Source: Paracoccus nototheniae (GTDB taxonomy: Bacteria; Pseudomonadota; Alphaproteobacteria; Rhodobacterales; Rhodobacteraceae). From it: a DNA stretch of 64,000 nt. Positions 3,484 through 38,754 of this stretch are shown here, one piece after another. A program made the translations under genes and the position numbers. Location: assembly GCF_004335005.1 (NCBI RefSeq), contig NZ_RQRT01000015.1, positions 1 to 64,000 on the forward strand. The letters are read 5' to 3'. Below the pieces are notes generated by a model, which saw nothing but the letters and a program-made list of their open reading frames with translations, had not been told where the DNA came from and did not search any database. Numbering within the stretch: position 1 is the first letter of the stretch; each line of letters opens with the position of its first letter.

Positions 3484-3519
3484 GGGGGGAGTCCGAAGGA
3501 CGGGGGGCAGCGCCCCCCT
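3462..3519 (-). repeat. Dispersed intergenic repeat, copy 3
   Basis: This copy is inverted relative to copy 2. On the minus strand it reads G-run hairpin (GGGGGGCGCTGCCCCCC), GTCC/GGAC mini-hairpin, CCCCCC, GGGATATTT and then CCAAGATGAA. It lies directly after the stop of the minus-strand glutathione transferase gene. Confidence 0.9.
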
Positions 3520-3526
3520 TTCTGTT

Positions 3527-4390
3527 TCAGCCTTCCAGCTTGTCCTGCGTCCGGGTCTGGAAATCCGCCGCGTCATGGCGTTCATGCAGCTGTTTGGCCG
3601 GATCGCCAGAGACATTGTTGACCATGATGCCGCGTTGCACCGCAGGGCGGGCCGCGATCTCGGCCTGCCAGCGGTGCAGGTTGCGATAGCGTTCCGCGTC
3701 AAGGAAGGTTGCCGCATCGCCATAGGCGCCGCCGGTGATCAGCCGACCGTACCACGGCCAGATGGCAATGTCGGCGATGGTGTAATCATCGCCCGCGATA
3801 AAGCGGGTCTTGGCCAGCCGCTTGTCCAGCAGGTCCAGCTGGCGTTTGACCTCCATGGTGAACCGGTCGATCGCGTATTCGATCTTGACCGGCGCATAGG
3901 CATAGAAATGCCCGAAACCGCCGCCCAGATAGGGGCCTGCGCCCATTTGCCAGAAGAGCCAGTTCAGCGCCTCGGTCCGTCCGGCAGGATCCGATGGCAG
4001 GAAGGCGCCGTATTTCTCGGCCAGATACAGCAGGATCGATCCCGATTCGAAGACCCGCTGCGGGGGGCTGACCGAATGATCCATCAGCGCGGGGATCTTG
4101 GAATTCGGGTTCACGTCGACAAAGCCGCTGCCGAACTGGTCGCCATCGCCGATCTTGATCAGCCAGGCGTCGTATTCGGCGTCATGCCCGGCTTCGAGCA
4201 ACTCTTCGAGCAGGATGGTGACCTTTTGCCCATTGGGCGTGGCCAGCGAATACAGCTGCAGCGGGTGCTGGCCCACGGGCAGATCGCGGTCGTATTGCGC
4301 GCCTGCGGTGGGCTTGTTGATGCTGGCGAACTGGCCGCCATTGGCCGCGCCGGGGGTCCAGACCTTGGGAGGGGTGTAATCGTCGCTCAT
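3527..4390 (-). CDS. yghU: YghU-type glutathione-dependent disulfide-bond oxidoreductase
   Basis: This is a glutathione S-transferase family protein of the Nu class (YghU/YfcG), which reduces disulfides with glutathione and may act on organic hydroperoxides. From memory it matches E. coli YghU closely along its length: the N-terminal extension (PPKVWTP), LPVGKHPLQLYSL-like and TPNGQKVTI segments, NPNSKIPALMDH, ESGSILLYLAEKYG, GGGFGHFYAYAPVKIEYA and the tail LHERHDAADF. I use the ATG at 4390 (287 aa) because AGGA sits six bases upstream and the start then aligns with YghU; 4405 is also in frame. It converges on ilvC. Confidence 0.95.
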   Translation of the reverse strand: MSDDYTPPKVWTPGAANGGQFASINKPTAGAQYDRDLPVGQHPLQLYSLATPNGQKVTILLEELLEAGHDAEYDAWLIKIGDGDQFGSGFVDVNPNSKIPALMDHSVSPPQRVFESGSILLYLAEKYGAFLPSDPAGRTEALNWLFWQMGAGPYLGGGFGHFYAYAPVKIEYAIDRFTMEVKRQLDLLDKRLAKTRFIAGDDYTIADIAIWPWYGRLITGGAYGDAATFLDAERYRNLHRWQAEIAARPAVQRGIMVNNVSGDPAKQLHERHDAADFQTRTQDKLEG

Positions 4391-4452
4391 CATCTGTCCT
4401 GTCATTGTGCCTGATCAAGGATGGGGATGGGTGGCGCCAACATCAACGGGCT

Positions 4453-4481
4453 TTGCATATGTTCCCTTTGTGTTCTATATT
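4453..4481 (+). promoter_or_regulatory. LexA-type (SOS) promoter of the radical SAM gene
   Basis: TTGCAT (4453-4458) and TATATT (4476-4481) form a -35/-10 pair with 17-base spacing. The box GTTC-CCTTTGT-GTTC occupies 4461-4475, filling the spacer. GTTC-N7-GTTC is the LexA operator known from Rhodobacter and other alphaproteobacteria. The start codon at 4488 lies seven bases after the -10, where transcription should begin, and no ribosome binding site precedes it, so the mRNA is probably leaderless. Confidence 0.75.
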
Positions 4482-4487
4482 GATGTC

Positions 4488-5567
4488 ATGCTGCCACCTC
4501 GCAACCCCGACCAACGCCTGAAGGCCCGAGGCTCTGACACCCGACCATCGGGGCGGTTCGAGGCCTTGTCCCATATCCGCTGTTCGGATGGCTGGGACAT
4601 CCCCGAGGATCAGGCCTTGCTGCGGACCGAGGTCACGACCGAGCAGCCGCGCAGCATCATCACCCGCAACAGCTCGCCCGATATCGGCTTTGATCGGTCG
4701 ATCAATCCCTATCGCGGCTGCGAGCATGGCTGCATCTATTGCTATGCGCGGCCCAGCCATGCCTGGCTGGGCCTGTCGCCGGGCGCGGATTTCGAAACGA
4801 AGATCACCGCCAAGCCGGGCGCCGCCGCCTTGCTGACGCGCGAACTGGGGCGGCGCGGCTATAAGCCCGCGCCCATCGCGCTTGGGACCAATACCGATCC
4901 CTATCAGCCGGTCGAGGCGCGGCTGGCGATCATGCCGGGCATCCTGCGGGTGCTGCGCGACTGGAATCACCCGGCGACGCTGGTCACGCGCGGCTCGATC
5001 GTGCTGCGCGATCTGGATCTGTGGGCCGAGATGGCGGCCCGCGATCAGGCGATGATCGGCGTCAGCATCACCACGTTGGACGCCGATCTGGCCCGCGCAA
5101 TGGAGCCGCGCGCGCCCTCTCCCGTCACGCGGCTGCGGATGATCCGCGACCTGGCCCGCGCGGGCATTCCGGTGCGCGTCATGGTCGCCCCGGTCATCCC
5201 GGTCCTGACCGAACCCGAGATCGAGCGGATCCTGCAGGCCGCGCATGAGGCCGGGGCCACCACCGCCAGCATGATCCCCCTGCGCCTGCCGCATGAGGTC
5301 GCGCCGCTGTTCCGGGACTGGCTGGACAGGCACCGGCCCGGCATGGCCGCGCATGTCATGAACCGCGTTCAGGCCATGCGCGGTGGGCGCGACAATGATC
5401 CGCGCTTTGGTCATCGCTTCAAGGGCGAGGGGATCGAGGCGCAGCTGGCGCAGCAGCGATTCCGTCTGGCGCGCAAGCGGCTTGGCTATCGCGAAGGCAG
5501 CCCGGCGCTGGATTGCAGCCGCTTCGCCCCGCCGCCCAAGGCAGGGGATCAGTTGTCGCTGTTCTGA
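4488..5567 (+). CDS. PA0069-family radical SAM protein
   Basis: This 359-residue radical SAM protein belongs to the PA0069/Rv2578c family, which is related to spore photoproduct lyase (SplB) but has no settled reaction. The cluster motif is CEHGCIYCY (CX3CX2C) near residue 76, preceded by NPYRGC. The next conserved blocks are ALGTNTDPYQPVE, TLVTRGSIVLRDLDL and VMVAPVIPVLTE. The tail (DQLSLF) has the form of a beta-clamp-like peptide, which I cannot confirm. I place the start at 4488 (MLPPRNPDQRLKARG) because an SOS-type promoter ends there; upstream in-frame codons would run through the operator. DNA-damage induction is inferred from that operator. Confidence 0.9.
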   Translation: MLPPRNPDQRLKARGSDTRPSGRFEALSHIRCSDGWDIPEDQALLRTEVTTEQPRSIITRNSSPDIGFDRSINPYRGCEHGCIYCYARPSHAWLGLSPGADFETKITAKPGAAALLTRELGRRGYKPAPIALGTNTDPYQPVEARLAIMPGILRVLRDWNHPATLVTRGSIVLRDLDLWAEMAARDQAMIGVSITTLDADLARAMEPRAPSPVTRLRMIRDLARAGIPVRVMVAPVIPVLTEPEIERILQAAHEAGATTASMIPLRLPHEVAPLFRDWLDRHRPGMAAHVMNRVQAMRGGRDNDPRFGHRFKGEGIEAQLAQQRFRLARKRLGYREGSPALDCSRFAPPPKAGDQLSLF

Positions 5568-5600
5568 CCTTTCCGGTCTGGTGCTTTGCGTCCTATGGGA

Positions 5601-6590
5601 TCAGTGCCTGTGCCCGATGGTCAGGCCGTCCTGACCCATGCCGCCGCTAAAGGCGCCAAGGCGGGCGGTGATCTGGTCCAGCGTCGGGCGCGGACCTTTC
5701 GGGCGGGTTTCCAGCGCGCTGCGCATGGCCTGCAGATGCTCGGGCATGGTGCCGCAGCATCCGCCGATGATCCGCACGCCCATGTCGCGGGCCAGGCAGG
5801 CGTAATCGGCCATCAGGTCGGGCGTGCCGTCGTAATGCAGATGGCCGTCCTGCAGATGCGGGACGCCCGCATTGCCCTTGGCGATGATCGGGCGTTCATT
5901 GCCCGAGGCCGCAAGCCCCGCCACCGTTCGCAAGAGATCCGAGGCCCCGACGCCGCAATTCGCGCCATAGGCGACGGGGGGATTGGGCAGCTTTTCCACC
6001 GCCGCCGCTAGTTGCATGGGTGTCACGCCCATGATCGTGCGTCCTGCCGTGTCAAAGCTGAGACTGCCGCACCAGGTCATGCCGACGCGGCGCGCCGCCT
6101 CGGCCGCGGCGCGCAATTCGTCAAGCGAAGCGAGGGTTTCGATCCACAGGATATCGGCGCCGCCGTCGCGCAGCGCCTCGGCCTGTTCGTGAAACATCTC
6201 GATGGCGCGGGATTGGGTCAGGCTGCCCATCGGGGCCATGATCTCTCCGATGGGGCCCATGCTGCCGGCGACGACCAGCGGACGGTTGGCCCGGTCGGCC
6301 TGTTCGCGGGCGATCTCAGCCGCCAGACGGTTCAGCTCGGTCACGCGATCGGCGGCGCCGTGCAGCGAGAGGCGGCTGGCATTGGCGCCAAAGCTGTTGG
6401 TCAGGAACAGGTCGGACCCGGCATCGATGGCGCTGCGATACAGGGCGGCGATGCGATCCGGATGGGTGGCGTTCCAGATTTCGGCCGGGGTGGCACTGTC
6501 CAGTCCCATGTTGAACAGCGCGGTGCCCGTCGCCCCGTCGGCCAGAACATGAGGGCGGGTGGCCAGCATCCGGGTCAGCGCATCGGTCAT
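5601..6590 (-). CDS. bmt: Betaine--homocysteine S-methyltransferase
   Basis: This is a zinc-dependent methyltransferase that moves a methyl group to homocysteine to make methionine; in this family and taxon the donor is usually glycine betaine or a related methylated compound. It has 329 residues and is a single homocysteine-binding barrel, like the N-terminal part of MetH. Signatures are LADGATGTALFNMGL at the N-terminus, FLTNSFGAN, and the zinc ligands in GANCGVG and GGCCGT near the C-terminus. AAGGA lies seven bases before the ATG at 6590. It stands alone, 144 bases behind the terminator of the rplI operon. The exact methyl donor is inferred. Confidence 0.88.
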   Translation of the reverse strand: MTDALTRMLATRPHVLADGATGTALFNMGLDSATPAEIWNATHPDRIAALYRSAIDAGSDLFLTNSFGANASRLSLHGAADRVTELNRLAAEIAREQADRANRPLVVAGSMGPIGEIMAPMGSLTQSRAIEMFHEQAEALRDGGADILWIETLASLDELRAAAEAARRVGMTWCGSLSFDTAGRTIMGVTPMQLAAAVEKLPNPPVAYGANCGVGASDLLRTVAGLAASGNERPIIAKGNAGVPHLQDGHLHYDGTPDLMADYACLARDMGVRIIGGCCGTMPEHLQAMRSALETRPKGPRPTLDQITARLGAFSGGMGQDGLTIGHRH

Positions 6591-6733
6591 CGTCTTGTCC
6601 TTGCCCGGCAAAGGGGACATGGCCGCCCCGGCAGAGGTGCCGGGCAGGGCAGCGGCCCCTGCGGGGTCATATCCGGTAATCAGATCCATGCGGGATGATG
6701 CCATGTCAGGAAACAGGATGCATCCGAACAGAT
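6591..6733 (-). other. GC-rich leader upstream of bmt
   Basis: This 143-base stretch between the rplI terminator and bmt contains several G/C-rich complementary segments (for example TGCCCGGCA and TGCCGGGGCGG on the minus strand) and an open reading frame continuous with bmt. I compared it mentally with SAM-II, SAH, SAM-V and SAM/SAH riboswitch cores and found no match. It may simply be a promoter and structured 5' leader. Confidence 0.3.
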
Positions 6734-38661: not shown

Positions 38662-38754
38662 CCGGGGGCGCTTCGCCCCCGTGCCGATCGGTTCTTGAAC
38701 CGACGGCGAACCGCTCGGCACCCCCCCGAGGATATTTAGGTGAAGAAGAAGAGG
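38662..38754 (+). repeat. Dispersed intergenic repeat, copy 9 (expanded)
   Basis: CCGGGGGCG-CTT-CGCCCCC is followed by an extra imperfect hairpin of about 40 bases (GTGCCGATCGG ... CCGCTCGGCAC), then CCCCCC, GAGGATATTT and the tail GGTGAAGAAGAAGAGG. It fills the gap between fabD and fabG, and its tail supplies the only ribosome binding site in front of fabG. Confidence 0.85.

Follow-up and report, generated by a model that had tools for sequence, protein, structure and literature searches.

A promoter in this 64,000-nucleotide stretch of Paracoccus nototheniae DNA (hereafter the window) raises the question of what a radical SAM enzyme does when its gene appears to sit under the SOS repressor LexA. 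The gene at position 4488 encodes a member of the PA0069 family (NF033668), for which NCBIfam gives no reaction, just as it gives none for the Rv2578c family (NF038135). An earlier note on this DNA had described a LexA box between the -35 and -10 elements of a leaderless gene, a kinship of the product to spore photoproduct lyase and, from the SOS operator, a role in DNA damage repair or tolerance. A damage-response switch in the promoter, a probable start at the AUG and a tag resembling clamp-docking peptides together suggest that the product is probably a DNA-repair enzyme. We hold this reading as a whole, that of a clamp-docked, SOS-induced DNA-repair enzyme, with considerable confidence. 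The features concerned are collected in Table 1.

Table 1. Predicted features of the PA0069-family locus and its two neighbours (positions in the window).
Feature	Position	Strand	Remarks
Glutathione S-transferase-like protein, divergent neighbour	3527..4405	-	Not thought to be part of the system
-35 element TTGCAT	4453..4458	+	-35 to -30, counting the ATG's A as +1
Predicted LexA operator GTTCCCTTTGTGTTC (GTTC-N7-GTTC)	4461..4475	+	-27 to -13; adjoins the -10 element, within the 17-base spacer
-10 element TATATT	4476..4481	+	-12 to -7, in the same numbering
Predicted transcription start, the A of the start codon (leaderless mRNA)	4488	+	Inferred from the register
PA0069-family radical SAM protein, 359 aa (P0001)	4488..5567	+	NF033668, 462 bits (cut-off 360); PF04055
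CxxxCxxC motif for a 4Fe-4S cluster, codons 78-85	4719..4742	+	C78, C82 and C85 in 140/140
QLSLF, consensus beta-sliding-clamp-binding pentapeptide, codons 355-359	5550..5564	+	Low-confidence tail
Homocysteine S-methyltransferase-like protein, convergent neighbour	5601..6728	-	Not thought to be part of the system

From 4453 to 4490 the window reads TTGCAT, AT, GTTCCCTTTGTGTTC, TATATT, the six bases GATGTC and the ATG, with a 17-base spacer that encloses the whole GTTC-N7-GTTC; the coordinates and spacing first described for the box are correct. The -10 element would put +1 on the A of the AUG, and no Shine-Dalgarno-like sequence is seen before this codon. A promoter scan of positions 3500-6500 returned one promoter-like site at the same spot, chosen as TTTGCA-18-TATATT (shuffle mean 0.4). 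Across the 4.6-Mb genome GTTC-N7-GTTC occurs at 126 sites, against 75 for the reversed pattern, and a lone occurrence is therefore weak evidence. The combination of a box and an immediately adjoining TANNNT is unique in the genome, at 4461-4481. A looser pattern, GTTCN7GTTCNANNNT, occurs in 8 places (control 1), and the promoter of the gene at 4488 is the one place of the 8 that has the TA. The genome contains both lexA and recA, which a LexA regulon requires. Each carries GTTC-N7-GTTC before its start codon in the orientation opposite to that at 4461-4475, and by eye each has a purine-rich Shine-Dalgarno-like sequence before its ATG. A second exact GTTC-N7-GTTC listed for the window, at 38697-38711 on the reverse strand (GTTCGCCGTCGGTTC), is G+C-rich and probably a chance match; no others were listed.

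We found the family gene in 118 of 121 genus genomes and read 117 upstream regions, the present locus included. G001, which has a C-terminal fragment alone, was left out, and the first piece was taken for G031, where the match came in two pieces. An exact box lies within 120 bases upstream of the gene in 115 of the 117 loci (shuffles average 0.29, maximum 3), and the two remaining loci carry it at the same place with one mismatch in the first half-site. The box was found in reverse orientation upstream of 0/117 loci, and an exact box lies within the first 120 coding bases in 0/117.

Beyond the genus, NF033668 was over its cut-off in 111 of 299 phylum genomes. We surveyed 109 of these loci, the other two (the present genome and G044) belonging to the genus set. 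Exact GTTC-N7-GTTC occurs within 300 bases in 65 of 70 alphaproteobacterial loci; four further loci have the box with one mismatch, a count that does not exceed the chance level. In the 39 loci outside the class, presumed to be beta- or gammaproteobacterial, the motif CTGT-N8-ACAG is present in 29 and lacking in 10. Neither group carried an exact copy of the other's motif (70 alphaproteobacterial loci, 39 others; expected from shuffles, 0.38 and 0.18). One of the ten loci lacking CTGT-N8-ACAG instead has the palindrome TTAGTAATAATACTAA, which we take to resemble the xanthomonad LexA box. Four non-alphaproteobacterial loci without a LexA box (L289, L297, L309 and L308) show, near the start, a TGAGAC element followed after about 10 bases by GCGTA or GCTAG, possibly a different damage promoter. 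A named collection gave a similar picture: GTTC-N7-GTTC lies within 260 bases in 68 of 68 loci taken, by record title, as alphaproteobacterial, a count that includes one record with an actinobacterial name (Enemella evansiae), presumably contamination, and CTGT-N8-ACAG is present in 6 of 12 beta- or gammaproteobacterial loci. Among the six misses, by eye, L087 has a box across the aligned start and L085 a box with one mismatch.

The operator thus follows the clade across the phylum, and LexA control of this gene has apparently outlived changes in LexA's own binding motif. The operator is clade-specific, overlaps the promoter and is kept in relatives, as is expected of a member of the LexA regulon. 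That the box is a chance match in a promoter outside LexA control, a reading favoured by the genome-wide counts given above, in which most single sites are noise, is ruled out for practical purposes by conservation in the genus and by clade-matched operators across the phylum. On this comparative evidence we regard LexA control of the PA0069-family gene as close to certain. The survey of relatives that had been suggested for the box is positive at both levels, and the role in DNA damage repair or tolerance first suggested by the operator is backed by its conservation across genus and phylum. PA0069 itself presumably belongs to the LexA regulon of P. aeruginosa.

The genus loci also preserve the geometry of the promoter. 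Measured over 116 boxes, the distance from box start to ATG is 27 bases in 93 loci and 26-28 in 105; it is 38-39 in 8 and takes other values in 3. TANNNT ends exactly six bases 5' of the ATG in 84/117 loci, and GGAG, GAGG or AGGA occurs at -16 to -4 in just 2/117, which bears out the earlier description of an ATG close after the -10 element without a ribosome binding site. Where the box is at -27 (93 loci), A-11 is invariant (93) and T-12 and T-7 are each present in 84, while T-35 (85) and G-33 (79) are the commonest bases at their positions. These features predict a sigma-70-type promoter with its expected +1 on the A of the AUG. In the 8 loci with the box 11-12 bases further up, at a distance of 38-39, the TTG within the box itself falls at -35 to -33 (one base downstream in one locus), and the end of TANNNT remains six bases from the ATG (five in one locus). 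The -35 element, the -10 element and the AUG therefore hold the same spacing to one another even in loci with a displaced box, and a leaderless mRNA is predicted. Operator, register and their conservation can be read from the sequences themselves; from them we infer LexA binding, induction and a start at the AUG.

The alternative is that transcription starts further upstream, with translation from a more distant codon or after a short leader. At the present locus an in-frame GTG at 4407 keeps the reading frame open to 386 codons, and in 50/117 genus loci the frame, followed upstream past the box, reaches a start codon before any stop. An N-terminal extension of this kind is not conserved, however, because an in-frame stop lies within 10 codons upstream of the ATG in 59/117 loci, and in 52 it lies four codons upstream, at the -10 element. 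The fixed -35/-10/AUG register and the absence of a Shine-Dalgarno-like sequence in 115/117 genus loci also stand against a leader. We consider a leadered transcript quite improbable, and a leaderless mRNA in the genus highly probable from the promoter geometry.

The leaderless register was examined in the genus and in the alphaproteobacterial loci. In the 65 boxed loci of the class sample, an in-frame ATG or GTG lies 38-40 bases after the box start in 33, against about 2.7% of random positions, making this the commonest arrangement; a start codon lies 26-28 bases after the box start in 9, against about 2.6%. The 16 loci with a start at exactly 39 have a weaker -10 element (T-12 in 10, A-11 in 12 and T-7 in 10 of 16). 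In family f10, several of the 8 matches offer many in-frame ATGs to pick from. The remaining 23 of the 65 loci match neither of these two registers (27 and 39) and may be transcribed with leaders, which indicates that leaderlessness is not universal. In five alphaproteobacterial loci (L132, L141, L144, L146 and L148) the box is followed by a common TAGGAAT stretch, but an ATG is missing where a leaderless start would require it; translation of these genes may begin further downstream, after a leader. Operator and promoter have thus shifted against each other, and it is the promoter that has mostly held its place before the AUG. In effect the promoters form a natural experiment, in which -35, -10 and AUG are fixed and the operator varies in position, being found within the spacer or over the -35 element (in the second gene described below, also over the -10 element). 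Since one register is kept as the operator position varies, selection appears to act separately on initiation at the AUG. The class is known to produce leaderless mRNAs: the portion of PMC3616915 available to us reports 171 in Sinorhizobium meliloti, all AUG-started.

The encoded protein belongs to the radical SAM superfamily, with a PF04055 match (E 6.1e-14) and the CxxxCxxC motif. Its score against the Rv2578c family model NF038135 (239 bits) is below the cut-off of 430. We modeled the structure with AlphaFold from 34 sequences (mean pLDDT 81) and compared it with the PDB using Foldseek. Ranks 1-6 are all spore photoproduct lyase entries (E about 1e-7, TM 0.56-0.61), and weaker matches include peptide-, tRNA- and cofactor-modifying enzymes. 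Profile alignment with two lyase-like sequences by hhalign agrees, with a probability of 94.5% over residues 64-286. Spore photoproduct lyase (PDB 4fhc and relatives) is therefore the closest solved fold, and the CxxxCxxC motif is common to both proteins.

The lyase itself uses a fourth conserved cysteine, C140, as hydrogen donor. In the hhalign alignment C140, recognized by the C140S chain, falls opposite Y125, in a gapped stretch where the correspondence is uncertain. Among the 140 full-length family proteins compared, the best cysteine column after C78, C82 and C85 is C343, at 60/140, and no column outside the cluster motif exceeds 43%. The lyase's hydrogen-donor cysteine thus has no counterpart in the family, and the reaction, the least certain part of our interpretation, is probably not that of spore photoproduct lyase. 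Family models point the same way: no lyase model is among the NCBIfam matches of the protein, and the lyase family TIGR03886 is over its cut-off in 0 of 142 class genomes (4 weak matches), with no match in the present genome or in that of the P. denitrificans locus L012. A search of PDB sequences with the family profile found no spore photoproduct lyase up to E 10, its best match being SkfB (E 0.0011). Of the kinship to spore photoproduct lyase proposed in the earlier note, fold and profiles stand and the catalytic cysteine does not.

These observations bear on a published interpretation. A 2012 comparative study (PMC3323433) predicts, in the text we could consult, LexA control of a gene called 'splB' in alpha- and betaproteobacteria across divergent LexA motifs, and reads it as SOS-controlled photoreactivation. 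Paracoccus denitrificans is in its alphaproteobacterial set, and the PA0069-family gene of a P. denitrificans record (L012) has the box. As far as that account goes, 'splB' is apparently the PA0069-family gene. The two share clade-specific LexA-box control; 'splB' was named a photoreactivation enzyme on homology, whereas the gene described here falls in NF033668, lacks the catalytic cysteine and encodes a clamp motif. A true spore photoproduct lyase reversing thymine dimers under SOS control would account for the shared fold, the profile alignment and the shared cluster motif, as well as for the published name. It fails at the catalytic residue, where the three cluster cysteines alone are conserved and C140 meets Y125 (in the uncertain stretch), and it finds no lyase family model; we consider it improbable.

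The extreme C-terminus of the protein offers a different lead. A strict Q[LM]x[LMF][FL] motif stands at the very C-terminus of 125 of the 140 full-length family proteins (80 named, 30 genus and 30 phylum loci), and a similar sequence stands at the end, or a few residues before it, in most of the remaining 15. Q355 is present in 140/140 and L358 in 136/140, while much of the preceding linker is variable. No flanking ORF (0/509) ends in the motif; these ORFs, the longest non-overlapping ones of at least 150 aa, were picked mechanically, are in part homologous to one another and could in some cases be false. The window's other 45 ORFs that reach 150 aa lack it as well. In the AlphaFold model residues 351-359 have a mean pLDDT of 57 and residues 357-359 fall below 50, a low confidence that fits the expectation for a free peptide. 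The protein thus carries in a flexible place a peptide of the QL[S/D]LF type, which is given as the consensus for beta-clamp binding in the available text of PMC3716654 and PMC12309361, and as Q-L-x-L-F, often C-terminal, in that of PMC4549789. According to the same excerpts, this peptide is shared by clamp clients such as Pol II, Pol IV, PolC and transposases; unlike these, the PA0069 protein is neither a polymerase nor a transposase. A short C-terminal motif can be conserved for another reason, and still the match and its conservation make it, in our view, fairly likely that the family tail binds the beta clamp. The presence of the motif in most members suggests a site of action that can be tested with a peptide, and it points away from a light- or spore-specific job.

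A second radical SAM gene in the same genome carries the same combination. It belongs to TIGR03916 (rSAM_link_UDG; 572 bits; L249:257-1486, reverse strand; contig C133, 28890-30119), a family separate from PA0069, and its product also ends in QLSLF. TIGR03916 is present in 42 of 61 genus genomes, and in the 30 loci that were read the strict C-terminal motif ends 24 proteins, the other six ending in QLxLI or QLSLFG. In 29 of these 30 loci a LexA box is found no more than 60 bases from the ATG, either reversed within the spacer, on the -10 element or at about -39; its orientation is mostly opposite to that of the PA0069-family box. The promoter again looks leaderless: TANNNT ends six bases from the ATG in 17 loci, seven in 4 and eight in 1; it was not found there in 7, one locus has no ATG in place, and a Shine-Dalgarno-like sequence appears in 1 of the 30. 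We take TIGR03916 to be equivalent to COG4277. The Bacteroidetes provide a parallel, as the part of PMC8565304 at hand places a COG1573-COG4277 operon with uracil-DNA glycosylase in an SOS-like network. The clamp motif and the second boxed gene give the repair reading independent support.

It could still be argued that the PA0069-family enzyme is SOS-induced and acts on RNA, protein or a metabolite, its C-terminal motif serving another partner. Radical SAM enzymes are diverse; the weaker Foldseek matches modify peptides, tRNA or cofactors, and the best PDB sequence match, SkfB, is peptide-modifying. Yet the best fold match is a DNA-repair enzyme, the C-terminal peptide fits the consensus of replication and repair clamp clients, and a clamp-type tail recurs in the second LexA-boxed radical SAM protein. 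We therefore judge a substrate other than DNA unlikely, and favor with moderate confidence, from fold and tail, an enzyme that acts on DNA.

In the mechanism that we propose, LexA bound to the box would cover the space between the -35 and -10 elements and shut the promoter. Upon DNA damage LexA would be cleaved, allowing RNA polymerase to start at the A of the AUG and produce a leaderless mRNA. The product would be a PA0069-family radical SAM enzyme with a spore-photoproduct-lyase-like barrel, whose C-terminal QLSLF would dock it on the beta sliding clamp, and the enzyme would repair damaged DNA, or help to bypass it, at replication forks. The barrel's kinship and the tail motif are legible in the sequences, and it is the docking itself that is deduced from them. 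More broadly, we tentatively suggest, at slightly less than even chances, that radical SAM DNA-repair enzymes tethered to the clamp form a class within the proteobacterial SOS response (PA0069 and, in the genus, also rSAM_link_UDG), acting by direct reversal or lesion processing at the fork and expressed in many alphaproteobacteria from leaderless promoters with the LexA box built in at several places. The point matters for a family that lacks an assigned reaction and whose relatives have been named photolyases in published work, as far as the consulted portions of that work show.

SOS control of a PA0069-family gene is apparently not new in kind. Among the sources for which we had partial text, a radical SAM protein is assigned to the LexA regulon of Gram-positives and Balneolaeota (PMC7739468), SplB/COG1533 to that of Bacteroidetes (PMC8565304) and vnz_31145, a radical SAM protein, to that of Streptomyces venezuelae (PMC9380542), and gene context ties SplB-like proteins to SOS operons (PMC3765255); these proteins are known here by description and may not belong to the PA0069 family. 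Radical SAM genes are not mentioned in the main-text portions available of SOS papers on Caulobacter and Dinoroseobacter (PMC12700426, PMC13384398, PMC6473078), and the accessible parts of PMC8407463 and PMC5552922 hold nothing on a PA0069-family gene. A literature search for PA0069 together with LexA found none, and in one paper matched by PA0069 alone the term belongs to a strain name. Likewise, among the matches listed, there was no paper on leaderless control of a PA0069-family gene, none linking radical SAM proteins with the clamp and no radical SAM clamp client. As far as these searches go, the conserved leaderless design and the C-terminal clamp-binding peptide are new.

The neighboring genes gave no functional lead. 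Among phage records, 11 had a match and none covered 80% of the query; among plasmid records, 77 had a match and 26 covered at least 80%. In two Paracoccus records (H12 and H13) the orthologue is carried by a replicon of about 1.5 Mb that is catalogued as a plasmid. Other boxed genes of the present genome were drawn from a part of the 126 sites, and within that part from those with less than 60% G+C in 65 bases. Two of these loci, L240 (contig C33, 62536-62550) and L356 (contig C213, 79773-79787), are near-identical and have GTTCCCGTATTGTTC just before an ORF; the ORF in L240 is UmuD-like (104.7 bits, just under the cut-off of 110). ImuA-like ORFs lie near LexA boxes in L354 (contig C202) and L263 (contig C184), scoring 61 and 39 bits against the NF033429 cut-off of 150.
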